Of a stretch of 64,000 nucleotides of DNA, positions 17,462-60,977 are shown in pieces; within the stretch, counting starts at the first letter, position 1, and each line of letters starts with the position of its first letter. The stretch covers positions 868,001 through 932,000 of the forward strand of contig NZ_WJIE01000002.1 of the NCBI RefSeq assembly GCF_009649845.1, read 5' to 3'. The position numbers and the translations under genes are program-made. A model generated the notes under the pieces. That model saw only the letters and a program-made list of their open reading frames with translations, searched no databases and was not told the origin of the DNA. Source of the stretch: Polyangium spumosum. Lineage in GTDB: Bacteria; Myxococcota_A; Polyangia; Polyangiales; Polyangiaceae.

Positions 17462-18739
17462 ATGAAGCACCTCCCCCGACGCCGCTTCCTCTCGGGCCTC
17501 GGCGCGGCCCTCGTCGCCGCCCCCGTCCTCGGCCTCCTCGCGCGTGACCTCCGCGCCGAAAACGCGACGCCGGCCCGCCGCCTCGTCGTGTTTTTTTCGC
17601 CCAATGGCACCATCCACAAACACTGGCGCCCGAGCGGCAGCGGGACGAATTTCTCGTTCCCCGCGGGCAGCATCCTCGAGCCCCTCACGCCACACAAGAG
17701 CCGCCTCATCGTGTGCGACGGCCTCGATTTCCACGGCGTCGACAACCACGAGGCGGGCATGGCCGCCATGCTCACGGGCGGCGGCACGCTCGGCACGGAG
17801 ACGGCCGGAAAGAGCCTCGATCAATACGTCGCGAGCCGCATCGGAAAGGACGATCGATTCCCCTCCCTCGAGCTGGGCGTGCAGACGAGCGCCTGGGGCG
17901 GCGGCATCCAGACCCGCATCTCGTATGCCGGCCCCGGGCAATACGTCCCGCCCGACGACAGCCCCAAGAGCGTCTTCACCCGCATGTTCGGCGACGCCGT
18001 CGGCGGCCCGGCCGAGCTCGACGCGGCCCTCGCCCGCAAGAAGGGCATCCTCGACCTCCTCCGCGGCGAGATCGGCGCCCTGCGCGGCCAGGTCGGCTCC
18101 CACGAGCGCGAGAAGCTCGACGAGCACCTCGAATCGTTGAAGAAGCTCGAATCCGGCCTCCAGGGCCCGCTCTGCGCGCCGCCCGCGGCCCCGCCCCAGG
18201 TCGGCACCTACGACAACGACGCGTTCCCCACGATCGGCAAATCCCAGATGGATCTGCTCGTCCTCGCGCTCGCCTGCGACATGACCCGCGTCGCCTCCGT
18301 GCAATGGAACCACACCGTCGGCCCCGTCGTCATGAGCTGGCTCGGCGTCGCCGAGGGCCACCACGGCCTCTCCCACAGCGACGACGGCAATGCCAAAGGC
18401 GTCGCCGAGTTCGTCGCCACCGAGCGCTGGTACGCCGAGCAGTTCGCCTACCTCCTCGGGCGCCTCGCCGAGACGCCCGATCCGCAGGGCGGCATGCTCC
18501 TCGACTCCACCGTCGTCCTCTGGTGCAAGGAGCTCGGCGACAGCCGCCTCCACGATTGCAAATCCGTGCCGTTCGTCCTCGCGGGCGGCGGCGGCCTCGC
18601 CACGGGCCAGTACCTGAAATTCGGCGGCGCGCCGCACAACCGCCTCCTCGTCTCCGTCTGCCACGCCCTCGGCCTCGACAACCAGACCTTCGGCGACCCG
18701 CAAAAAGGCAAGGGCGTCCTGCCGGAGCTCTTCGCGTGA
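17462..18739 (+). CDS. DUF1552 secreted protein (Tat-type signal)
   Basis: 425 residues. The N terminus MKHLPRRRFLSGLGAALVAA is a Tat-like signal. The body matches DUF1552 (RRLVVFFSPNGTIHKHWRPSG; FPSLELGVQTSAWGGGIQTR; RISYAGPGQYVPPDDSP; GHHGLSHSDDGNAKG; VVLWCKELGDSRLHDCKSVP). This family, frequent in planctomycetes and myxobacteria, belongs to the alkaline-phosphatase-like/sulfatase-like DUF1501 superfamily and is always encoded with a DUF1592 partner. Function is unknown. Here it precedes the DUF1592 gene, whose candidate GTG start overlaps its stop. A second pair is at 57967-60977. Confidence 0.9.
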   Translation: MKHLPRRRFLSGLGAALVAAPVLGLLARDLRAENATPARRLVVFFSPNGTIHKHWRPSGSGTNFSFPAGSILEPLTPHKSRLIVCDGLDFHGVDNHEAGMAAMLTGGGTLGTETAGKSLDQYVASRIGKDDRFPSLELGVQTSAWGGGIQTRISYAGPGQYVPPDDSPKSVFTRMFGDAVGGPAELDAALARKKGILDLLRGEIGALRGQVGSHEREKLDEHLESLKKLESGLQGPLCAPPAAPPQVGTYDNDAFPTIGKSQMDLLVLALACDMTRVASVQWNHTVGPVVMSWLGVAEGHHGLSHSDDGNAKGVAEFVATERWYAEQFAYLLGRLAETPDPQGGMLLDSTVVLWCKELGDSRLHDCKSVPFVLAGGGGLATGQYLKFGGAPHNRLLVSVCHALGLDNQTFGDPQKGKGVLPELFA

Positions 18740-18765: not shown

Positions 18766-21129
18766 ATGGCCATGCTGCGCAAAGTATTTCGCTCGAATTC
18801 GCTCCGGATCACGGGCGCCCTCGCCCTCACGGCCGCCTTCGCCGGCTGCCTGGGCGAGGAAGACGGGAAGGGAGGCGTCCCCGGCGTCGTCGGTTGTCCA
18901 GACGACCTCGCCTTCTTCCAGAACAACGTCTACGAGCCCCTGCTCGAGAAAAAGTGCTTCGTCTGCCACAGCGAGACGGGCATGGCCGGCGGGAGCCGGC
19001 TCGTCCTCGCGCCGCGCGGCGAGCCCGGCGCCCTCGAAAAGAACCTCGAGGTCGCGCGCGCCCTCGCCGTCGATCAAAAGGGCGGCCTCTCCGCCCTGCT
19101 CTCGCGCCCCTCGGGCCAGCACCCGAATGGCCACCCCGGCGGCACGATCTTCGAGCCGGGCACCCCCGAATACGCGACCCTCTCGCTCTTCGTCACGCGA
19201 ACCACCCGCGGCGAGGGCTGCGCCGCGCCCTCCGCCGCCTGCACCACCGTGCAGCCAGGCCCCCGCGTCCTGCGCCGCCTCACCCGGAGCGAATACGACG
19301 CCACGATCCGCGACCTCGTCGGCATCCCCTCCGAATGGGGCGCCTCCTTCGTGCCCGACATCGTCATCGGCGGCTTCGACAACAACGAGGACGCGCTCCG
19401 CGTGAGCCCCCTCTTCGCCGACCAGGTCCGCCGCGCGGCCGAGGAGATCGCGACGCTCGCCCTGACAAACCCGTCGAGCGTGCTGCCCTGCGACCCGGTC
19501 GCCGACGGCCCCGAGGCCTGCGCGGAGACGTTCATCGAGACCTTCGGCAAGCGCGCCTTCCGCCGCCCGCTCGGCGCGGACGACACCACGCGTTACCTCG
19601 CCCTCTACCAGACCATCGCCACCAAGGAGGGTTTCTCCGAGGGGATCGAGGCCGTGATCGCGGCCATGCTGCAATCGCCGCATTTCCTCTATCGCACCGA
19701 GCTCGGCGACGCGTCCCTCGCGGCCGAAGACGGGCGCGTCCGTTTGACCCCGCACGAGATCGCCACCGAGCTCTCCTACATGCTCTGGGGCACGATGCCC
19801 GACGCCGAGCTCTTCGCCGCCGCCGACGCGAATACGCTCGCGACGCCGGAGCAGATCGAGGCCCAGGCCAAGCGCCTGCTCCAGGATCCCAGGAGCGACG
19901 AGATCCTCGAGCGTTTCGCCGTCGCCTGGCTCGAGCTCGACCGGATCGAGGCCGCGCCGAAGGACGCGGCGACATACCCGCAATGGAACGCCGAGCTCCG
20001 CGCCTCCATGATCGAGGAGACCCGCCTCTTCGTGCGGCACGTGATCCGCAATGGCGAGGGCACGATCGCCGAGCTCCTCGACGCGCCCTACACCTTCACG
20101 AGCCCCAAGCTCGCGGCCTATTATGGTCTGCCCGCGCCCGCGGATGCGCAGGACGAGAACGATTTTGGCCTCGTCGATCTCGCCGGCTCCGGCCGCGCCG
20201 GCATCCTCACGCACGGCAGCGTGCTCGCCACACACGGTAAACCCGCCGGCTCCTCGCCCGTGCACCGCGGCAAGCTCGTGCGCGAGCGCCTGCTCTGCCA
20301 GCCCTTGCCGCCGCCGCCCCCCGGCGTCGTCGCCGAGCCGCCCCCGATCGATCCCACGAAGAGCACGCGCGAGCGATATGCGGCGCACACCACCGTCCCG
20401 CTCTGCAAGAGCTGCCACGACCTCGTCGACCCCATCGGCTTCGCCTTCGAGCATTTCGACGGCATCGGCCGGTATCGCGCCGACGAGGGAGGTTTGCCGA
20501 TCGACGCCTCCGGCGAGATCCTCTCGGCCCCGTCCACCACGGGCACGTTCGAGGGTGCCCCCGCGCTCGCCTCCGTGCTCGCAGGGAGCGCCGACGTCCA
20601 GGGTTGTTATGCGCGCTCGTGGCTCCGGTATGCGTACGGCCAGCTCGACGAGGGGCGCCTCGCTTGCCTCTCGAGCCAGGTCGCGGACGACTTCCAGAAT
20701 GGCAACCTCCGCGTCCTCGACCTCCTCGTCGCGCTCACCCGCACGTCCCATTTCACCGAGCGCGTCGCCGATCCCCCCGAGCCCGGCGTCGATCCCGGCG
20801 CGGGCGCGGGCGGCGCGGGCGGAGACCCCACCGGATCGGGCGGCGCGGGCGCGGGCGGCGGCGATCCCGGCCCCACGCTCCCTTACGCCGTGGCCACCAC
20901 CGTCGACAGCGATTGGGGCGGCGGATATCAGCTCACCGTGCAGGTGACGAACATCGGCAAAGAGCCGCTCACCTGGTCCATCCCGATGAACGTCGACGGC
21001 ACGATCGCGAACATCTGGAATGCCTCCTACACGGTCACGGACGGCACGACCCATTTCGTGGGCGCGGAGCACAACGCCGTCCTCGCGCCAGGCCAGGCCA
21101 CGAGCTTCGGCTTCGTCGCGAATCGCTGA
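18766..21129 (+). CDS. DUF1592-family lipoprotein with haem motifs and C-terminal CBM2-like domain
   Basis: 787 residues from ATG 18766 (GGGAG just upstream; GTG 18736, which overlaps the previous stop, is an alternative). The lipobox is AFAGC. The N-terminal part has a cytochrome-type KKCFVCHSETG. The middle has DUF1587/DUF1595/DUF1592 features (RRLTRSEYDATIRDLVG, FGKRAFRRPLGADDTTRYL, QSPHFLYRTELGD, ELSYMLWGTMPDAELFAAAD). DUF1588 follows with HGSVLATHGKPAGSSPVHRG and a second motif, CKSCHDLVDPIGFAFEHFDG, then DUF1585. A Gly/Pro linker (about 670-705) joins a final ~80-residue domain (TVDSDWGGGYQLTVQVTNIG to LAPGQATSFGFVANR) that reads as a cellulose-binding CBM2 fold. The family role is unknown; redox handling of a polymer is inference. 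Confidence 0.87.
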   Translation: MAMLRKVFRSNSLRITGALALTAAFAGCLGEEDGKGGVPGVVGCPDDLAFFQNNVYEPLLEKKCFVCHSETGMAGGSRLVLAPRGEPGALEKNLEVARALAVDQKGGLSALLSRPSGQHPNGHPGGTIFEPGTPEYATLSLFVTRTTRGEGCAAPSAACTTVQPGPRVLRRLTRSEYDATIRDLVGIPSEWGASFVPDIVIGGFDNNEDALRVSPLFADQVRRAAEEIATLALTNPSSVLPCDPVADGPEACAETFIETFGKRAFRRPLGADDTTRYLALYQTIATKEGFSEGIEAVIAAMLQSPHFLYRTELGDASLAAEDGRVRLTPHEIATELSYMLWGTMPDAELFAAADANTLATPEQIEAQAKRLLQDPRSDEILERFAVAWLELDRIEAAPKDAATYPQWNAELRASMIEETRLFVRHVIRNGEGTIAELLDAPYTFTSPKLAAYYGLPAPADAQDENDFGLVDLAGSGRAGILTHGSVLATHGKPAGSSPVHRGKLVRERLLCQPLPPPPPGVVAEPPPIDPTKSTRERYAAHTTVPLCKSCHDLVDPIGFAFEHFDGIGRYRADEGGLPIDASGEILSAPSTTGTFEGAPALASVLAGSADVQGCYARSWLRYAYGQLDEGRLACLSSQVADDFQNGNLRVLDLLVALTRTSHFTERVADPPEPGVDPGAGAGGAGGDPTGSGGAGAGGGDPGPTLPYAVATTVDSDWGGGYQLTVQVTNIGKEPLTWSIPMNVDGTIANIWNASYTVTDGTTHFVGAEHNAVLAPGQATSFGFVANR

Positions 21130-25999: not shown

Positions 26000-26059
26000 T
26001 CTTCGACAAGCGTGCTAGCATCCGCGTCCCTGCTCGGGACCAACCTTCGAGAAGAGAGC

Positions 26060-27373
26060 ATGTCCATGCAGAACCATTCGCAGGTGAGCGCTCGGCCGCC
26101 CAGGAGGTGGCTGCGAGGCGGGAGCGTCGCGCGGACGCTCCTCGGGGGACTCTTCGCCATCGGCCTCGTCGCGGGCTGCGAGCGAATCGCGTTTTATTCG
26201 ACGAGCCAGAAAGCGCCGGACTCGAACGCGAGCTCCTCCTCGACCACGACCGGCGGCAGCACCGGCGATCAGGACAGCGGGGCGACGGCCGTGACCCGGG
26301 CGATGCTGCTCGACGCGATTGCCACGTGTAACCTCGACCTCCTCGACGAATTTCAGAAGGCGGCCCAGGAGCTCGACGCCGCCGCGGCCGAGGCCAAGCA
26401 GGACCCCGCCGCCCGCCCGAAGGCCCAGGCCGCCTGGACGAAGGCCATCGATATCTGGCAACGCGCCGAGCCCTTCGCGTTCGGCCCCGCCGGCCCCACG
26501 AACACGCCCGGCAGCCAGGGGCTGCGCGACACCATTTACTCCTGGCCGCTCGTGAGCCGCTGCCTCGTCGAGCAAAACATCGTCTCGAAGGCCTACGAGG
26601 CCCCCACGTTCGGCACGACCGCGCTCATCAACATGCGCGGCCTCGCCGCCGCCGAATACCTCCTCTTCTACACGGGCACCGACAACGCCTGCAGCCCCGC
26701 CAGCGCCATCAATAGCTCCGGCTCGTGGGCCGCCCTGAGCGCGGACGAGCTCGCCGCACGGAAGGCCGCGTATGCCTCGTCCGTCTCGACCGGCGTCGCG
26801 GCGATGGCCGGAAAGCTCCTCGCCGCCTGGCGCCCGGACGAGGGGAATTTCGACGCGCAATTCAGGAACCCGGGCAAGAGCGGCTCGGCGTACACGACCG
26901 AGCAGATGGCCCTCAATGCGGTGAGCGACGCGATGTTCCACATGGAGGTCCACGTGAAGGACCAGAAGCTCGCGCGCCCGCTCGGCATCATGAATTGCGA
27001 GGCCGCGACCTGCCCCGAGGCCGTCGAATCACGCTTCGCCGGCCGGTCGAGGACACACGTGCGCAACAACCTCGTCGGCTTCCGCATGCTGATGAGCGGG
27101 TGCAACGACGGCGAAGGCGTGGGCTTCGACGACGTGCTCGTCTCGCTCGGCGCCACGGCGCTCGCCGAGAAGATGAGCGCCGACGTGAACGGGGCCATCA
27201 CCGCGGCGGACGCGATACCGGTCGAGGATCTCGCTCAGGCCATCGCGCAGAACCCGGAGAGCGTCGAGCAGCTCCACGCCGCGGTGAAACGAATCACCGA
27301 CAGCCTCAAGACCGAGTTCGTCACGGTGCTCGATCTCGAGCTCCCGAAGCTTTTGGAAGGCGACAATGACTGA
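26060..27373 (+). CDS. Imelysin-family lipoprotein (M75-like), putative iron-uptake protein
   Basis: 437 residues from ATG 26060. Long signal peptide with lipobox LVAGC (Cys40), then a Ser/Thr/Gly linker and a helical imelysin domain from about residue 80 (AAWTKAIDIWQRAEPFAFGP; SQGLRDTIYSWPLVSRCLVE; NMRGLAAAEYLLFYTG). Imelysins (EfeO/IrpA relatives) bind periplasmic or surface iron. The usual GxHxxE motif is altered: it reads GLAAAE (194-199), so the His is Ala196 while Glu199 is kept. The protein contains many Cys (for example RCLVEQ, DNACSP, MNCEAATC, SGCNDG). It is the first gene of an operon with a gamma-carboxylase-like membrane protein (8-nt overlap) and a FecA-like receptor, behind Fur-like sites. 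Confidence 0.85.
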   Translation: MSMQNHSQVSARPPRRWLRGGSVARTLLGGLFAIGLVAGCERIAFYSTSQKAPDSNASSSSTTTGGSTGDQDSGATAVTRAMLLDAIATCNLDLLDEFQKAAQELDAAAAEAKQDPAARPKAQAAWTKAIDIWQRAEPFAFGPAGPTNTPGSQGLRDTIYSWPLVSRCLVEQNIVSKAYEAPTFGTTALINMRGLAAAEYLLFYTGTDNACSPASAINSSGSWAALSADELAARKAAYASSVSTGVAAMAGKLLAAWRPDEGNFDAQFRNPGKSGSAYTTEQMALNAVSDAMFHMEVHVKDQKLARPLGIMNCEAATCPEAVESRFAGRSRTHVRNNLVGFRMLMSGCNDGEGVGFDDVLVSLGATALAEKMSADVNGAITAADAIPVEDLAQAIAQNPESVEQLHAAVKRITDSLKTEFVTVLDLELPKLLEGDND

Positions 27374-28793
27374 ACGCGCCGGAGCGGTCCCGTCGGGCCG
27401 CCTCGCGCGGCTCGCCTCCTTGCTCCTTCGGGAGGAGGACGCCGCGGCGCTCGCCGCCTTCCGATTCTGCTTCGGGCTCCTCGGGTGCGTCAGCGCGATC
27501 CGGTTCCTCGCTTATGGCTGGGTGGACGAGTTCTTCGTCACGCCCCGGTTTTTCCTGTCGTATTGGGGCTTCGACTGGCTCACGCCCCTCTCCGCCCGCG
27601 GGATGCACGCGCTCTTCGTGGCGCTCGCCGTCGTGAGCGCGTGTGTCGCGGTGGGATTCCTCTATCGCGCCGCGATCGTCCTCTTTTTCCTCGGCTTCAC
27701 TTACGTCCAGCTCATCGACGTCACGAACTACCTCAACCATTACTACCTCGTCAGCCTGATCGCGCTCCTCCTCTCGCTCATGCCCCTCCACCGCGCGTAT
27801 TCGGTGGACGCGTGGCTCTTCCCGAGGCTCCGGAGCGCGACCTTGCCCGCGTGGTGCACCCATCTGCTCCGCTTCCAGGTCGGCGCCGTGTATTTCTTCG
27901 CGGGCCTCGCGAAGGTGAACAGCGATTGGCTCCTCCACGCCCAGCCGCTCAACATCTGGCTCTCGTCGCGATCCTACCTGCCCGTCGTCGGCCCGCTGCT
28001 CGGCGAGCGCTGGGTCGCCTACGCCATGAGCTGGGCGGGGTGCCTCTTCGACCTCACGATCGTGGCCTTCCTCTTGATGCCGCGCACGCGCGTCGCCGCG
28101 TACGCCGTCGTCCTCTTCTTCCACGCGGTCACGAAGCTCCTCTTCCCGATCGGCATGTTCCCGGCGATCATGGTCGTCGCCGCGCTCGTCTTTTTCTCGC
28201 CGAGCTGGCCCCGGAACCTCGTCGCATTCTTCCGCCGGCGCGCCCCTGCGCCCGCCGCGCCTGCCCTGCCCCGGCCCGCCGACGCGCCCCTCCCCGCGCT
28301 CTTCGGCGCGCGCGTCGTGATCGCCGCGTGTTATTGCGCGTTCCACCTCCTCTGGCCCCTCCGGACGCACCTCTACGGGGGAAACGTCCTCTGGCACGAG
28401 CAGGGAATGCGTTTTTCCTGGCGCGTCATGCTCCGTGAAAAGAACGGGAGCGTCACGTATCTCGTGACGAACCCCCGGACGGGGCGCAAGCAGGAGGTCA
28501 CCCCGCGCAAATACCTGAATGGCCGCCAGGAGCGCGATTTCTCCACGCAGCCCGACCTCATCCTGCGGCTCGCGCACGAGATCGCTCGCGATTTCGAGGC
28601 CCGCGAGGACGTGCGCCCGGTCGTGCGCGCGCACGCGCCCGTGTCGCTCAATGGCCGCCCGGCCGAGCTCCTCATCGATCCGACGGTCGATCTCGCCTCC
28701 ATGTCCGACGGGCTCGCGAAGGCCACCTGGATCCGGCCCGTCCCCGAGACCCCTCCCATTCACCTCGAGTCCCTCGCATGGCATCGCCCTTGA
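27366..28793 (+). CDS. HTTM / vitamin K-dependent gamma-carboxylase-like membrane protein
   Basis: 475 residues, with several membrane spans in the first ~290 and a soluble C-terminal part. It keeps the hallmarks of the gamma-glutamyl carboxylase family, not only of the general HTTM group: NYLNHYYLVSLIALLLSLMP (121-140) and YFFAGLAKVNSDWLLHAQPL (176-195). In the second of these, Lys183 aligns with the catalytic-base Lys218 of human GGCX (AGVKKLDADW). The C-terminal region (GNVLWHEQGMRFSWRVMLREKNG and VTNPRTGRKQEVTPRKYL) also resembles the lumenal part of GGCX. Substrate in bacteria is not established. It overlaps the imelysin gene by 8 nt and the receptor gene by 16 nt, so all three are one transcription and translation unit. 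Confidence 0.85.
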   Translation: MTERAGAVPSGRLARLASLLLREEDAAALAAFRFCFGLLGCVSAIRFLAYGWVDEFFVTPRFFLSYWGFDWLTPLSARGMHALFVALAVVSACVAVGFLYRAAIVLFFLGFTYVQLIDVTNYLNHYYLVSLIALLLSLMPLHRAYSVDAWLFPRLRSATLPAWCTHLLRFQVGAVYFFAGLAKVNSDWLLHAQPLNIWLSSRSYLPVVGPLLGERWVAYAMSWAGCLFDLTIVAFLLMPRTRVAAYAVVLFFHAVTKLLFPIGMFPAIMVVAALVFFSPSWPRNLVAFFRRRAPAPAAPALPRPADAPLPALFGARVVIAACYCAFHLLWPLRTHLYGGNVLWHEQGMRFSWRVMLREKNGSVTYLVTNPRTGRKQEVTPRKYLNGRQERDFSTQPDLILRLAHEIARDFEAREDVRPVVRAHAPVSLNGRPAELLIDPTVDLASMSDGLAKATWIRPVPETPPIHLESLAWHRP

Positions 28794-31066
28794 TTCGACG
28801 CTCGGCGCTCCCCGCGCTCCTCGTGTTCTCATTTTCGCCCGCGGCGGCGCTCGCCCAGGGCGCCGAGCCTGCCCCGCCGCCGGAGGAATCCGCCGCGCCC
28901 GCGAGCGACGCGCCGCCGCCCGCCGCGGAGGCGACGAGCGCCGAGGATCCGAACGCGAAACCCGCGGAGCCGCCGCCGCCCATTGAAATCTCGGTCGTCG
29001 GCACGCGGCTCCAGCAGACGAGCGGATCGGCGCACGTCGTGAGCACGAAGCAGCTCGCGCGCTTCAAGTACGACGACCCCCACAAGGTGCTGCTCGGCGT
29101 GCCCGGCGTCTACATTCGCGAGGAGGACGGCTTCGGCTTGCGCCCGAACATCGGCATTCGTGGCGCCGTCTCCGATCGCAGCAAGAAGGTCACGCTGATG
29201 GAGGACGGCGTCCTCCTCGGGCCGGCGCCCTACTCGGCGCCCGCCGCGTATTATTTCCCGCTCATCGGCCGCATGGATGCGGTGCGCGTGGTGAAGGGCC
29301 CCGCGGCGATCAGTTATGGCCCCCATACCATCGGCGGCGCCATCGATATGACCACGGCCGCCATCCCCTCCGAGCGCCGCGGCATGCTCGACGTCTCGTT
29401 CGGCCAGTACATGTTCCGCAAGGTGCACGCCCGGCAAGGGCTCGCCGACGACAAATACGGCGTCCTCCTCGAGGCCGTGCACGTCGCCAACGACGGGTTC
29501 AAGGAGCTCGACGGCGGCGGCGACACCGGGTTTGCCCGGACCGACGTCATGATGAAGGGACGATACACCTTCGACCCGGTCGACTCGGTGATCAACGAGC
29601 TCGAGCTCAAGGTGGGGTATCAGAACGAGGGCTCCAACGAGACGTACCTCGGCCTCAGCGACGCGGATTTCCGGGCGACGCCTTATCGTCGTTACGGAGC
29701 GAGCCGCCTCGACCGGATGGACTGGAACCGCACGCAGTTCCAGCTCACGCACCGCGTGCGTTTCCGCCCGAACCTGGAGCTCACGACCATCGCCTATCGC
29801 CACGACATGCGCAGGGCCTGGCGCAAGGTGAACGCGTTCCGCGGCACGTCCGTCGCCGACGTGCTGGCGAACCCCGAAGATCCGCGTAATGCCCTCTATT
29901 ACGGCGTCCTCACCGGGGCCATCGCCCCGAGCTCGGCCGGCGAGACGCTCATGATCGGCCCGAACGACCGGTCCTTCGTCTCGCAGGGCCTCCAGTCGAC
30001 GGTCTCGTTCCGCCCGAAAACGGGCCCGATCTCGCACCGGATCGAGTATGGCTTCCGGCTCCATTACGACTCGATCCGCCGCCTGCACACCCAGGACGGC
30101 TTCCTGGTCGAGGAAGACAACCTCACGCCGGAGGGCCGCGCCACGGAGACGACGGCCGACAACGACGCGTGGACCACGGCGCTCTCGATGTATGCGACCG
30201 ACGCCGCGACGTGGGGCCCGGTCACGGTCACGGCGGGCGCGCGCCTCGAGTCGATCCGCAGCGAGCTCGAGAACCACCTCTCGGGCGAGTACAACCTCAC
30301 GATCCAGCAGGTCGTCCTCCCGGGCGCGGGCGTCTTCCTCGCATTGCCGCGCGACTTCGGCCTGCTCGCCGGCGTGCACCAGGGCTTCTCCCCCATCCCG
30401 CCGGGGCAAAACGACCTCGTGCGCCCCGAGAAGAGCTGGAACTACGAGGCCGGCGTGCGCTGGGCACCGAAGCGAATGCGGGCCGAGATCATCGGCTTCT
30501 ACAGCGATTACAAGAACCTCACGAATCTGTGCACGTTCTCCTCGGGTTGCGTGGAGGAGAACCTCGACCAGCAGACGGACGGCGGCAGGGCGCGCGTGCT
30601 CGGCTTCGAGGCGTACGCCGAGAGCGAGATCAAGCTACGGGACGACCTCGCGCTCCCCGGGCGATTGAGCTGGACGTACACGGACGCGCGCTTCACGAAC
30701 ACGTTTCAATCGTCCGATCCGATCTTCGGCGACGTGGAGGAGGGCGACGAGCTGCCGTACGTCCCGCGACATCAGGTCGCGGCGTCGATCGGCGTCGAGA
30801 CGCCGCGGTGGGGCGTGAACGTGGGCTGCACGTACACGAGCCGCATGCGCGAGCTCGCCTCGCAAGGCGAACCCGCGCCCGGGACGGCGACGGACGACTA
30901 TTTCCTCCTCGACGCCTCCGTGAACGTCCGTCCGCTGAAATGGCTGACGATCTACGCGCTCGGGCGAAACCTGCTCGATAACGCCTACATCGCCTCGCGC
31001 CGTCCTTATGGCGCCCGCCCCGGCGCTCCGCGCTGGCTGCAGGCGGGCGCGCGCGTCGACTTCTGA
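28778..31066 (+). CDS. TonB-dependent outer-membrane receptor, FecA-like
   Basis: 762 residues. Signal peptide to about residue 26 (FSFSPAAALAQ), a Pro/Glu/Ala-rich stretch, a TonB-box-like region (IEISVVGTR), then plug and 22-strand barrel, ending in the typical ARVDF with C-terminal Phe. The plug signature EEDGFGLRPNIGIRGAVSDR and SKKVTLMEDGVLLGPAPYSA places it in the ferric-citrate (FecA) branch. It probably imports a ferric chelate. There is no extra N-terminal signalling domain, so no sigma/anti-sigma control is expected; Fur-like sites upstream of the operon are the likely regulator. Its ATG lies 16 nt inside the carboxylase-like gene. A 9-bp hairpin follows 28 nt after the stop. Confidence 0.92.
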   Translation: MASPLIRRSALPALLVFSFSPAAALAQGAEPAPPPEESAAPASDAPPPAAEATSAEDPNAKPAEPPPPIEISVVGTRLQQTSGSAHVVSTKQLARFKYDDPHKVLLGVPGVYIREEDGFGLRPNIGIRGAVSDRSKKVTLMEDGVLLGPAPYSAPAAYYFPLIGRMDAVRVVKGPAAISYGPHTIGGAIDMTTAAIPSERRGMLDVSFGQYMFRKVHARQGLADDKYGVLLEAVHVANDGFKELDGGGDTGFARTDVMMKGRYTFDPVDSVINELELKVGYQNEGSNETYLGLSDADFRATPYRRYGASRLDRMDWNRTQFQLTHRVRFRPNLELTTIAYRHDMRRAWRKVNAFRGTSVADVLANPEDPRNALYYGVLTGAIAPSSAGETLMIGPNDRSFVSQGLQSTVSFRPKTGPISHRIEYGFRLHYDSIRRLHTQDGFLVEEDNLTPEGRATETTADNDAWTTALSMYATDAATWGPVTVTAGARLESIRSELENHLSGEYNLTIQQVVLPGAGVFLALPRDFGLLAGVHQGFSPIPPGQNDLVRPEKSWNYEAGVRWAPKRMRAEIIGFYSDYKNLTNLCTFSSGCVEENLDQQTDGGRARVLGFEAYAESEIKLRDDLALPGRLSWTYTDARFTNTFQSSDPIFGDVEEGDELPYVPRHQVAASIGVETPRWGVNVGCTYTSRMRELASQGEPAPGTATDDYFLLDASVNVRPLKWLTIYALGRNLLDNAYIASRRPYGARPGAPRWLQAGARVDF

Positions 31067-57966: not shown

Positions 57967-59307
57967 TCAGACGAGCAGACCCGGTAATGGGCCATTACAA
58001 TAGGCAGGGTTGCCGAACGTCGCGACGGGCACGCCCATCGCGTGGGCGAGGGTGATCAAGAGATCGTTGTGGTAGGCGCCTTCGAACTTGCGCCATCGGC
58101 CTGTGTTCAGCGCGCCGCCCGCGCCGCCGACGAGCAGGAGCGGGACGTCGCGGCGCGCGTGGGTGTTGCCCTGGGCGATGTCGGTGCACCAGAGGATGAC
58201 GGTGTTGTCGAGGACCGTGCCGTCGCCCTCGGGCACGCTGTCGAGCTTCGCGCAGAGGTACGCGAGCTGCTGGGCATGCCAGTGGCCGATGTCGATGAGC
58301 ATCTGCTGGCGCTTCGTGTCCCCGTCGCTCGAATGCGAGAGCGTGTGGTGCGGCTCGTCCTGGCCGAGCCACGTGAAGACCTTGCCCGTCTGCACCGTGG
58401 TCCACTGGATGCTCGCCACGCGCGTGAGGTCGCAGATGAGCGACATCGCGAGCAGGTCGAGCTGGACCTTGGCGATGGCCGGGTAGTTGTCGTTCTCCAG
58501 GGGCTCGACGGGGGCGCCGAGGACGGGCGGGTTGCAGGCGCCGCCGATGACCCCGGGCGCGTCGAGGCGCTTCTCGATCTCGCGAACGGCCTCGAGGTGC
58601 GCGTCGACCTTCATGCGGTCGCTCGCGCCGAGCCGCGTCGAGAGGCGCTGGTAGTCGCCGGTCACGGCGTCGAGCACGGTCCTCCTCTGCGCCCGGAGCT
58701 TGGCGAGGGCCTCGGGATCGGTGCCGAGGTCCGAGAAGATACGCTTGTAGGCCTCGTACGGGTCGTCCTCGGGCGGCACGGGTTGCCCGGGGCCGCGGTA
58801 GGAGATGCGGGCCGAGACGTTGGCGTACTGGACCTGCACGCCGAACTCGAGCGAGGGGAAACGTGTGGTCTGGCCGATCTGGTCCGCGAGGAACTGATCG
58901 AGCGAGATGCCCCCGCCCCAGCCGACCATCTTGCCCGGGTTGCAGGCGTACGGAAAGAGCGAGCCCTCCTGGAGCTCGGTGCCCGTCAGCGCGTGGCCGA
59001 TGCCCTGCTGGTGCGGGTCGCCGGGGCCGTGGTAGGCCGACTCGTAGTCGACGCCTTCGAGCAGGATCGCCTTCTTCTTGAAGGGCTCGAGCGGCGCGAG
59101 GATGGGGCCGAAGCTGAAGTCGGTCCCGCTGCCCGTGGGGGTCCACGCGGGTTTGACCGTGCCGAGGCCCGTAAAAAACACGACAAAACGCTTCGGGAAG
59201 GCGGCCCCGCGGGCCGAATCGGCCATGGCCCCGAGGAACGGCAGGCCGACGGCCACGCCGCCGAGGCCGCGGAGGAGCGTGCGACGGCTCAGGGTGAGCT
59301 TTTTCAT
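57967..59307 (-). CDS. DUF1552 secreted protein (second copy)
   Basis: 446 residues from ATG 59307, overlapping the DUF1592 stop (ATGA). Tat-like signal KLTLSRRTLLRGLGGVAVGL. Conserved DUF1552 stretches: RFVVFFTGLGTVKPAWTPTG, FPSLEFGVQVQYANVSARIS, SYRGPGQPVPPEDDPYEAYK, EPHHTLSHSSDGDTKRQQML, NTVILWCTDIAQGNTHARRD. Same domain as the protein at 17462 but only moderately similar, so the pairs are old paralogs. Here the order is DUF1592 then DUF1552, the reverse of the first pair. Function unknown. Confidence 0.9.
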   Translation of the reverse strand: MKKLTLSRRTLLRGLGGVAVGLPFLGAMADSARGAAFPKRFVVFFTGLGTVKPAWTPTGSGTDFSFGPILAPLEPFKKKAILLEGVDYESAYHGPGDPHQQGIGHALTGTELQEGSLFPYACNPGKMVGWGGGISLDQFLADQIGQTTRFPSLEFGVQVQYANVSARISYRGPGQPVPPEDDPYEAYKRIFSDLGTDPEALAKLRAQRRTVLDAVTGDYQRLSTRLGASDRMKVDAHLEAVREIEKRLDAPGVIGGACNPPVLGAPVEPLENDNYPAIAKVQLDLLAMSLICDLTRVASIQWTTVQTGKVFTWLGQDEPHHTLSHSSDGDTKRQQMLIDIGHWHAQQLAYLCAKLDSVPEGDGTVLDNTVILWCTDIAQGNTHARRDVPLLLVGGAGGALNTGRWRKFEGAYHNDLLITLAHAMGVPVATFGNPAYCNGPLPGLLV

Positions 59308-60977
59308 GGCGCCTGCGTCACGACGGCCCGGCGGTACCGGAACGCGTCGGTCTGGGTGAGGGCGACGAGCAGCTCCTTCACGTTGAAGCCGCTCGCCTCG
59401 AAGGCCTTCTGGAGCTCGTTCATCGAGCAACGATCGTCCTCGCCTTCGACGCGGCCGTAGGCGAAGCGGAACCACTGGGTGGCGACACACTGGCGGGCCT
59501 CCTCGCTCTGCGCGAGGCGCTGCCCGAGCTCGACGACCCCGTGGAAGGGCCCGTCGATGTTGCGGGTGTCGACGAGCTCGCCCGAGTCGTCGACGGGCAA
59601 GCCCTGGTCGGTGTCGCGGTAGAGGCCGATGCCGTCGTAGTGCTCGAAGCCGAAGCCGACGGGGTCCATCTTGACGTGGCAACCCGCGCAGGCGTCGTTC
59701 TCCGAGTGCTCGGCGAAGCGCTCGCGCGTCGTGGCGTCGGGCCGGACCTCGGGCGCGTTGAAGGCGGCGTTGTTCGGCGGCGGCGGCAGGATCTGGCAGA
59801 GCAGGCGCTCGCGGACGAACTTGCCGCGGTGCACGGGCGAGGTCTGGTTCGGCTTGCCCGTGGCGGCGAGCACGCTCGCGTGCGTGAGGATGCCCGAGGC
59901 CCTCGTGGGATCGAGCTCCACGCGCTCGAAGCTCTGCGTCGCCGGGGCATCCTCGACGCCGTAAAACGAGGCGAGCTCCGCGTTCAGCATCGAGTAGCTG
60001 GCGGTGAAGACGCTGCCGATGTCGCCCTCGCCCTCGAAGATGACGTCCTCGAGGAAGGCCAAGGTCTCGGCCCGCCAGAGCGGGCGCAGGCCCTCGTAGT
60101 ACTTGGGGTACGCGGAGGCGTCCTTCTTGATGTTGTCGATGTGATTGAGGCCGAGCCACTGGGCATTGAAATTCGCCACGGCCTCGCGCGCCCGCGGATC
60201 GTCAAGCATGCGGCGCGCCTCCGCCTCGACCTCCTCCTTCGTGCCGAGGCGCCCCTCGTCCGCGGCGGCGAAGAGGGCCTCGTCCGGCATCGTGCCCCAG
60301 AGCATGTACGAGAGGCGCGAGGCGACCTCGTGGTGCGTGAGGGGCACGACGTCGGCCTCGACAGGGTCGGGCATTCCGAACTCGACGCGGTAGAGGAAGT
60401 GCGGCGACTGGAGCAACACCTGGAGGACGAGCTCGATCCCCTTCACGAACCCGCCCTCGCCGAGCCCCCACGAGAACACGCCCTGAAGGCGCGTGACCTC
60501 GTCGTCGGTGAGGGGCCTGCGGTAGGCGCGGCGGCCGAAGGTCTGGATGAACGTGGTGGCGCACGCCTGGTCCCCCATCGTCCCGGGGTCACAGGGCACC
60601 AGGGCGCCGAGGTCTTGCACGGCGCGGGCGGCGATCTGTTCGGCCGCGACCATGTACTGCTCGGCGAGGATCTGCGTGACGCCGAGGGCCGTGGCCTGGT
60701 TGTCGAAGCCCATGGCCTCCTCTTCGGGCACGAAGCTCGAAGCGGGCTGGGTGTCGTCGCCGACGAGGTCGCGGACGGTGTTGTTGTACTCGAACCGGGT
60801 CATGCGCCGGATGGGCGATTTGCCCGGGATCGTGCCGATGCACTGGAAGGCGGGCGCCTCCGCGGTGTGCTCGCCCGGCGGGTCGCCGATGTGGCCCGAG
60901 CAGGCCGCGAGCGACGCCGCCCCGCCGAGGGCGAGGGCGCCACCGAGGAGCCATGGCAAGCGCGCAGCGTAGGTCAT
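59304..60977 (-). CDS. DUF1592-family lipoprotein (second copy, short)
   Basis: 557 residues from ATG 60977. Lipobox SLAAC. Conserved: RRMTRFEYNNTVRDLVGDDT (DUF1587), FGRRAYRRPLTDDEVTRL (DUF1595), QSPHFLYRVEFGMPD and RLSYMLWGTMPDEALFAAAD (DUF1592), HASVLAATGKPNQTSPVHRG and a CAGCHVKMDPVGFGFEHYDG haem-type motif (DUF1588), then DUF1585. It lacks both the N-terminal haem motif and the CBM2-like tail of the first copy. A separate haem-motif lipoprotein encoded at 61919 on the other strand may replace the N-terminal motif. Heads the four-gene operon running to 55476. Confidence 0.9.
   Translation of the reverse strand: MTYAARLPWLLGGALALGGAASLAACSGHIGDPPGEHTAEAPAFQCIGTIPGKSPIRRMTRFEYNNTVRDLVGDDTQPASSFVPEEEAMGFDNQATALGVTQILAEQYMVAAEQIAARAVQDLGALVPCDPGTMGDQACATTFIQTFGRRAYRRPLTDDEVTRLQGVFSWGLGEGGFVKGIELVLQVLLQSPHFLYRVEFGMPDPVEADVVPLTHHEVASRLSYMLWGTMPDEALFAAADEGRLGTKEEVEAEARRMLDDPRAREAVANFNAQWLGLNHIDNIKKDASAYPKYYEGLRPLWRAETLAFLEDVIFEGEGDIGSVFTASYSMLNAELASFYGVEDAPATQSFERVELDPTRASGILTHASVLAATGKPNQTSPVHRGKFVRERLLCQILPPPPNNAAFNAPEVRPDATTRERFAEHSENDACAGCHVKMDPVGFGFEHYDGIGLYRDTDQGLPVDDSGELVDTRNIDGPFHGVVELGQRLAQSEEARQCVATQWFRFAYGRVEGEDDRCSMNELQKAFEASGFNVKELLVALTQTDAFRYRRAVVTQAP

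Follow-up and report, generated by a model that had tools for sequence, protein, structure and literature searches.

Cbp2D-type proteins and the gene pair of Polyangium

So far, the closest described counterpart of the locus considered here is Cbp2D of Cellvibrio, a protein with the domain order CBM2-YceI/X158-FN3-X183-DUF1587-X132. In the available part of PMC8981238 the C-terminal portion of C. japonicus Cbp2D is annotated as DUF1587 plus X132, and, since the annotation ends in this way, we infer that X132 corresponds to a DUF1592-type core. According to the accessible portion of PMC12542752, cbp2D and cbp2E are among six genes that deletion experiments in C. japonicus proved essential on insoluble cellulose, and on cellodextrins the single mutants in either gene matched the wild type; a direct cutting of the polymer is proposed by the authors. 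As to the relatives from Teredinibacter, the part of PMC10916295 at hand presents results which its authors judged inconsistent with electron donation to LPMOs, and a straw-degrading metasecretome (PMC6004670, available excerpt) lists a CBM2-bearing "DUF1592 domain-containing protein" assigned to Cellvibrio. The other group of relatives comprises the PSCyt3/PSD proteins of Planctomycetes, Acidobacteria and Verrucomicrobia, which have the same Pfam series as the protein described below and a DUF1552 neighbor; unlike that protein, those examined are devoid of CBM2. CBMs of other families were reported on PSCyt proteins in Verrucomicrobia (PMC5615132, available part).

The window, i.e., the whole stretch of 64,000 nucleotides of Polyangium spumosum DNA that was analyzed, carries on its forward strand a DUF1552 (HXXSHH) gene (17462-18739, 425 aa, Pfam PF07586, E 7.1e-80) followed by a DUF1592 gene with a C-terminal CBM2 (18766-21129, 787 aa). 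The N-terminus of the DUF1552 protein reads MKHLPRRRFLSGLGAA, which we take to be a twin-arginine-like motif, and the start of the DUF1592 protein is lipoprotein-like (LTAAFAGC). An in-frame GTG at 18736, upstream of 18766, overlaps the stop of the DUF1552 gene and may be the true start of the second gene. The DUF1592 protein has two c-type heme motifs, CFVCH (18955-18969, residues 64-68) and, within PSCyt3, CKSCH (20404-20418, residues 547-551), of which the latter shows no variation in C547, C550 and H551 across 40 aligned proteins. Its core (19273-20754, residues 170-663 of 787 according to Pfam) consists of PSD3 (DUF1587), PSD5 (DUF1595), PSD4 (DUF1592), PSCyt3 (DUF1588) and PSD2 (DUF1585), in this order, so that both features defining a DUF1592/DUF1552 pair, the domain order and an adjoining HXXSHH gene, are present. 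A linker rich in Gly, Asp and Pro follows (20770-20871; AF2 pLDDT <50 at residues 672-703). Among the 48 tailed proteins compared, 42 have two CXXCH motifs and six, some of them cut by contig ends, have one, and a lipobox was recognized by a crude home-made pattern in 31. The DUF1592 product is probably a secreted heme protein. The structure matches listed for it by Foldseek and VIA cover the tail rather than the core. As for the DUF1552 partner, its AF2 model (mean pLDDT 84.8) matches 5g2t in Foldseek (E 6.6e-6) and aligns with 5fql (VIA-align, Z 16.8, 265 residues aligned, rmsd 3.7), and its predicted fold is of the sulfatase/alkaline-phosphatase type.

The relation to Cbp2D was analyzed via Cellvibrio-type relatives of it. 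Two such proteins (L102 and L110) combine CBM2, YceI and cytochrome matches with the DUF1587/1595/1592/1588/1585 series, the PSD2 score of L102 being under its cut-off. L102 matches PDB 7b21, "cbp2D," at E 2e-8, and also X158 (2x34); its core is 38% identical to that of the window protein over 511 residues (E 4e-100). Its gene row consists of a CBM2-YceI gene (Cbp2E-like), the Cbp2D-type gene and a DUF1552 gene. In Cellvibrio sp. 79 (L110:929-10751, forward strand) the row is DUF1552, CBM2-GH5 cellulase-YceI, the Cbp2D-type DUF1592 gene and again DUF1552, the GH5 cellulase being fused with CBM2 and a Cbp2E-like YceI domain in one chain.

Thus, the window protein shares with the Cbp2D type the core series, a CBM2 on one polypeptide with it, CXXCH motifs and, at the Cellvibrio-type loci, a DUF1552 gene alongside. 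The differences are as follows. The CBM2 of the window protein is C-terminal and short, whereas that of Cbp2D is N-terminal and of full length; the window protein has a lipoprotein-like start, no YceI domain and no recurring Cbp2E-like neighbor; and DUF1552 lies upstream at the window locus but downstream of the gene encoding L102. YceI (X158) gave no Pfam match in the window protein and is present in L102, L110 and 4 of 33 untailed proteins. As to X183, the window protein has a CXXCH motif at residues 64-68, and phmmer found no match between it and 7b21 at E 1. The Cellvibrio proteins fall in a 100/98 clade apart from the tailed group instead of joining it, as orthologs of the window protein should. 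In view of its separate clade and the lack of YceI, we do not assign the window protein to Cbp2D as an ortholog. Nevertheless, the view of the sequence-only reading that this is a family with no known role does not hold, as the same core series occurs in Cbp2D-type proteins and a phenotype of the cbp2D deletion has been published (PMC12542752, accessible portion).

The short CBM2 domain

The final 85 residues of the DUF1592 protein (20872-21126, forward strand) form a short CBM2 domain, an identification certain for practical purposes. Pfam CBM_2 (PF00553) matches the tail alone with E 3.4e-13 and 50.2 bits (gathering cut-off 24) and, exceeding the gathering score as well, the entire protein with E 2.4e-11; CBM49 also matches the tail, more weakly and under its own cut-off. 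The PDB sequences matched by the tail are 6f7e, the CBM2 of ScLPMO10C (E 1.4e-10), and 3ndy_E (E 2.1e-6). In the AF2 model, strands run from residue 707 to 786; the block pLDDT is 72 for residues 701-710 and 89-96 from there on. The best fold match of this predicted model is 3ndy_E, the CBM2 of Clostridium cellulovorans EngD (Z 11.8, rmsd 1.6, 83 residues), the next is 6qfs, the CBM2 of Cellulomonas fimi Cex (Z 11.2), and chitinase-borne relatives come then. All 40 tailed proteins that were aligned match Pfam CBM_2 at E 0.001. The sequence-only reading had proposed a CBM2 pattern in the last ~80 residues, behind a Gly-rich linker, of a DUF1592 protein. In this it proved right: the residues it quoted are present, in frame and where it placed them, the linker begins near 20770, the profile score passes the cut-off, the predicted fold is the CBM2 sandwich, and the fusion recurs across the phylum. 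A chance match to CBM2 is ruled out by the E-value of the tail together with this recurrence in other genomes.

The typical form of CBM2 is full-length, with a last strand and a disulfide joining its N- and C-terminal parts. The window tail differs from this form. It aligns to positions 4-83 of the 101 positions of the CBM_2 profile, and, because the match ends about 18 positions early, the last strand is missing; nor does the tail contain any Cys. For the residue counts that follow, 43 DUF1592 tails were used, namely the rows of a 44-row alignment without L019, the one entry that does not belong to the DUF1592 proteins. Forty of the 43 end three residues past the second Cys column. The Cys pair, situated at positions other than in the typical form, is all-or-none: 39/43 tails have both residues and 4/43 neither, the latter being those of the window, of two congeners and of a Byssovorax relative.

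A triad of surface aromatic residues for crystalline cellulose is typical of CBM2a; in Cex, these are W17, W54 and W72. In the window tail the corresponding residues are Trp (codon at 20914), Trp (21016) and His (21070), by which the original description of the aromatic residues is corrected. Across the 43 tails the first position is W in 42 and Y in one, the second likewise W in 42 and Y in one, and the third W in 26, F in six, Y in six, His in three, Gly in one and Thr in one. The third-position His is found in the window protein and two congeners, and, by sequence alignment with 6f7e, it is shared with the CBM2 of ScLPMO10C, a protein that loses cellulose binding when deprived of its CBM2 (PMC10154629, available part). 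In total, the window tail resembles CBM family 2 in its above-cut-off score, predicted sandwich fold and two of three surface Trp positions, and departs from it in its shortness and in His at the third aromatic position.

As to selection, comparison of the window protein with those of four congeners gives dN/dS of 0.20-0.23 in the tail and of 0.20-0.26 in the core; among the four congeners themselves it is 0.18-0.55 for the tail and 0.15-0.25 for the core. Since the tail values are mostly the higher ones among the congeners, the tail should be regarded as under constraint, though a somewhat looser one than that on the core. These tail values, the absent last strand, the His at the third position in the window and two congeners, and the absence of the Cys pair from the four tails named above would suit a relic or structural tail, a short sandwich that no longer binds carbohydrate and is used instead in assembly or in contacts with proteins. 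We consider such a fate highly improbable: the two Trp positions are occupied by Trp in 42/43 tails, dN/dS of the tail is below 0.6 in 10/10 pairs, and the same short form terminates other proteins (L019, L179 and L180). Binding of insoluble glycan by the window tail is judged likely.

One of those other proteins, L019 (L019:328-1740, forward strand, same locus as L176), is a probably exported Polyangium protein with this short CBM2 at its C-terminus; in Pfam, it has CBM matches only.

Distribution of the fusion and phylogeny of the core

In a genome-wide search, the window tail was the only CBM_2 match found in the 10.8 Mb genome. Within the order, 115 genomes were searched and 17 of them yielded CBM_2 matches, 25 in all; 13 of these 25, according to the frames read, are C-terminal tails on DUF1592 proteins. 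A tail profile built from 13 DUF1592 tails and L019 matches 55/377 Myxococcota genomes. The C-terminal CBM2-DUF1592 fusion, counted where the tail ends an open frame holding the core (with a core HMM built from tailed proteins), occurs in 41 of the 377. In two of the cases counted (L147 and L158) the core is incomplete, and one genome (G386), where by reading the tail follows PSD2-like residues in a broken frame, was left out. The fusion was not found in the other 336/377 Myxococcota genomes, its distribution being patchy. The remaining tail-profile matches include LPMO_10 frames (by shared coordinates), a match beside a GH9 gene, one on a DPBB-domain protein, one after a legume-lectin-type match and one on a short protein. 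Tandem pairs of short CBM2 tails on DUF1592 proteins were observed in two genomes (L138/L145 in G325 and L151 in G254).

The genome of the window has eight PSD4 matches, its own (L027) included. The C-termini were read for four of the others (L028, L029, L030 and L031), where they are visible and without CBM2; the remaining three (L026, L032 and L033) were covered by the genome-wide CBM_2 search. A tail common to all DUF1592 proteins of this genome is ruled out by these four C-termini and by the single genome-wide match. L026 and L028-L032 lie outside the tailed clade, and L033 is absent from the tree. The window itself holds, ~37 kb away on the reverse strand (57967-60977), an untailed DUF1592/DUF1552 pair with DUF1552 downstream, as in most untailed pairs.

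Gene order was compared in named records for 80 loci, those that scored highest among 248 relatives when these were ordered by similarity to the window protein. These include 47 tailed and 33 untailed loci, a proportion that, because of the ranking, is not a frequency, for which 41/377 is the better estimate. DUF1552 lies directly upstream on the same strand in 44/47 tailed loci; of the remaining three, two are without upstream sequence and in one (L052) no DUF1552 was found. In the 33 untailed loci, DUF1552 is downstream in 27 (counting L110-L112, which have DUF1552-like matches on both sides), upstream in two and without a match in four, three of which have <150 bases of downstream sequence. 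In the two untailed loci with upstream DUF1552 (L049 and L065) the contig ends before the position of the tail. No third recurring neighbor was found: among neighbor clusters derived from base-composition-filtered frames, by which genes may be missed, none beyond the pair occurs in more than 6 of 42 Myxococcota loci.

In a tree of 87 cores, midpoint-rooted for drawing, a 100/100 branch sets the 48 tailed proteins, that of the window included, apart from the rest, the sole other members of their side being L049 and L065; to call this side a clade presumes that the root lies outside the tailed group. Recurrence across Myxococcota and this grouping rule out an isolated fusion confined to one genome. 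Proteins with N-terminal CBM2 (four Cellvibrio-type ones and L089 of the MAG SZUA-336) belong to another clade (100/98), as do L082 and L105 of Thiothrix, also with N-terminal CBM2; by Pfam, this arrangement is found in 7/33 untailed proteins. The Thiothrix protein (L105:3445-7518, forward strand) carries, besides its DUF1592 part, three CBM2 domains at the N-terminus and has several matches to cytochromes.

Possible role of the pair at insoluble polysaccharides

Action of the pair at an insoluble polysaccharide, as the sequence-only reading had suggested, is the best reading of these data. In the mechanism which we propose by analogy with Cbp2D, the DUF1552-DUF1592 pair would encode an exported redox machine, whose DUF1592 subunit, putatively a lipid-anchored, heme-loaded c-type protein, would be docked by the short CBM2 on its flexible linker onto an insoluble beta-1,4-linked polysaccharide, presumably cellulose in the first place or, alternatively, chitin. 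The heme core might then help to loosen or cut the polymer by oxidation, as was proposed for Cbp2D of Cellvibrio, with the DUF1552 partner of predicted sulfatase fold acting together with it. We put the probability that the pair works like Cbp2D, by CBM2-docked redox attack on insoluble glycan, at roughly 0.55. This reading is favored by the recurrence and conservation of the tail, the gene pair, the homology of the core to Cbp2D-type proteins with their cellulose-related gene surroundings and published phenotype, and the joining of CBM2 to DUF1592 at the opposite end in another clade; the third-position His, the absent last strand and the absence of YceI in the window protein count against it, as do the mostly higher dN/dS of the tail among the congeners, the patchy distribution, the lack of a recurring third neighbor and of an association with AA10, the fading of the GH9 association described below, and the Teredinibacter results.

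That CBM2 is joined to one and the same core at its N-terminal end in one clade and at its C-terminal end in the other also bears on the view that the CBM2 is only an anchor, keeping on plant debris, on the wall of prey or on the matrix of the cell itself an enzyme that acts on another substrate, e.g., a sulfated or phosphorylated glycan. CBM2 domains occur also on enzymes whose substrate is not cellulose. The sulfatase/alkaline-phosphatase-type predicted fold of the partner would agree with the anchoring role, and so would the other carbohydrate-binding families on the 33 untailed DUF1592 proteins (CBM_6 and CBM_35_2 on one each, Malectin on one, AMPK1_CBM on two). Yet this joining of CBM2 in two clades, the cellulase and CBM2-YceI genes at Cellvibrio-type loci and the appearance of the Cbp2D deletion phenotype on insoluble cellulose (PMC12542752, accessible portion) make mere anchoring unlikely.

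It might further be asked whether the CBM2-docked heme protein is no more than an electron donor for another, LPMO-like enzyme, e.g., the monooxygenase-like SCE4755-family protein of this genome. In vitro, X183 of Cbp2D reduces LPMOs (PMC8981238, available part). The genome of the window encodes one SCE4755 protein (NF043005, 141.4 bits) and one GH9 match. In association tests of the 41 fusion genomes against the 336 other Myxococcota genomes, uncorrected for ancestry, completeness and genome size, SCE4755 is somewhat commoner with the fusion (15/41 vs. 52/336, p 0.002). This link, still uncorrected for ancestry, falls to p 0.037 without the genus of the window, and no SCE4755 match was found in 26/41 fusion genomes. 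AA10 LPMOs are not associated with the fusion (3/41 vs. 24/336, p 1.0). Considering also that no third gene recurs beside the pair and that in C. japonicus the single deletion of lpmo10B was milder, this mutant growing better than the cbp2D or cbp2E deletions (PMC12542752, accessible part), we regard a purely electron-donating role as improbable. AA10 was dropped as an obligate partner, being present in only 3/41 fusion genomes. GH9 is likewise commoner with the fusion, with ancestry uncorrected (12/41 vs. 38/336, p 0.005); without the genus of the window the counts are 8/37 vs. 38/336 (p 0.11), and the association with this cellulase family was judged not robust. The SCE4755-family polysaccharide monooxygenase-like protein of the window genome (L177:871-1638, reverse strand, contig C7) has a His immediately after the apparent signal peptide.

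Going beyond the Cbp2D-like reading, one may suppose, with considerable doubt, that the DUF1592-DUF1552 pair attacks polysaccharides by itself, in a heme-dependent way and with no need of an LPMO; CBM2 would then have been captured at opposite ends in two bacterial groups because the core works on crystalline beta-glycans. If so, Cbp2D would be one branch of a system spread across Myxococcota, Pseudomonadota, Acidobacteriota and Planctomycetota, its catalytic subunit would have been overlooked, and the sulfatase-fold DUF1552 would be an unrecognized essential partner in Cellvibrio too.

The fusion is of value mainly because it connects an orphan gene pair with a phenotype that can be tested. 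As the core is related to proteins needed on solid cellulose, the role of the window protein is now testable; the orphan "Planctomycete-specific" DUF1592/DUF1552 pairs become linked to Cbp2D and Cbp2E of growth on solid cellulose, and the C-terminal X132 of Cbp2D, so far without an assigned role, gains a concrete test alongside them. DUF1552 is a candidate partner beside cbp2D-type genes, of which no mention was found in the available parts of the Cbp2D literature. Our literature search found no publication connecting DUF1592/DUF1552 pairs with Cbp2D/Cbp2E and none describing the myxobacterial CBM2-DUF1592 fusion, although CAZy or the supplement of PMC8981238 may list X132-CBM2 proteins; in the available part of PMC12093494 the mentions of CBM2 are tied to GH18 and GH19.

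One more group of genes in the window (26012-31066, forward strand) includes an imelysin (peptidase M75) gene, the end of which overlaps the next gene, HTTM/vitamin-K-dependent gamma-carboxylase-like, and a TonB-dependent receptor gene; possibly, this is a peptide-modifying or metal-uptake cluster.
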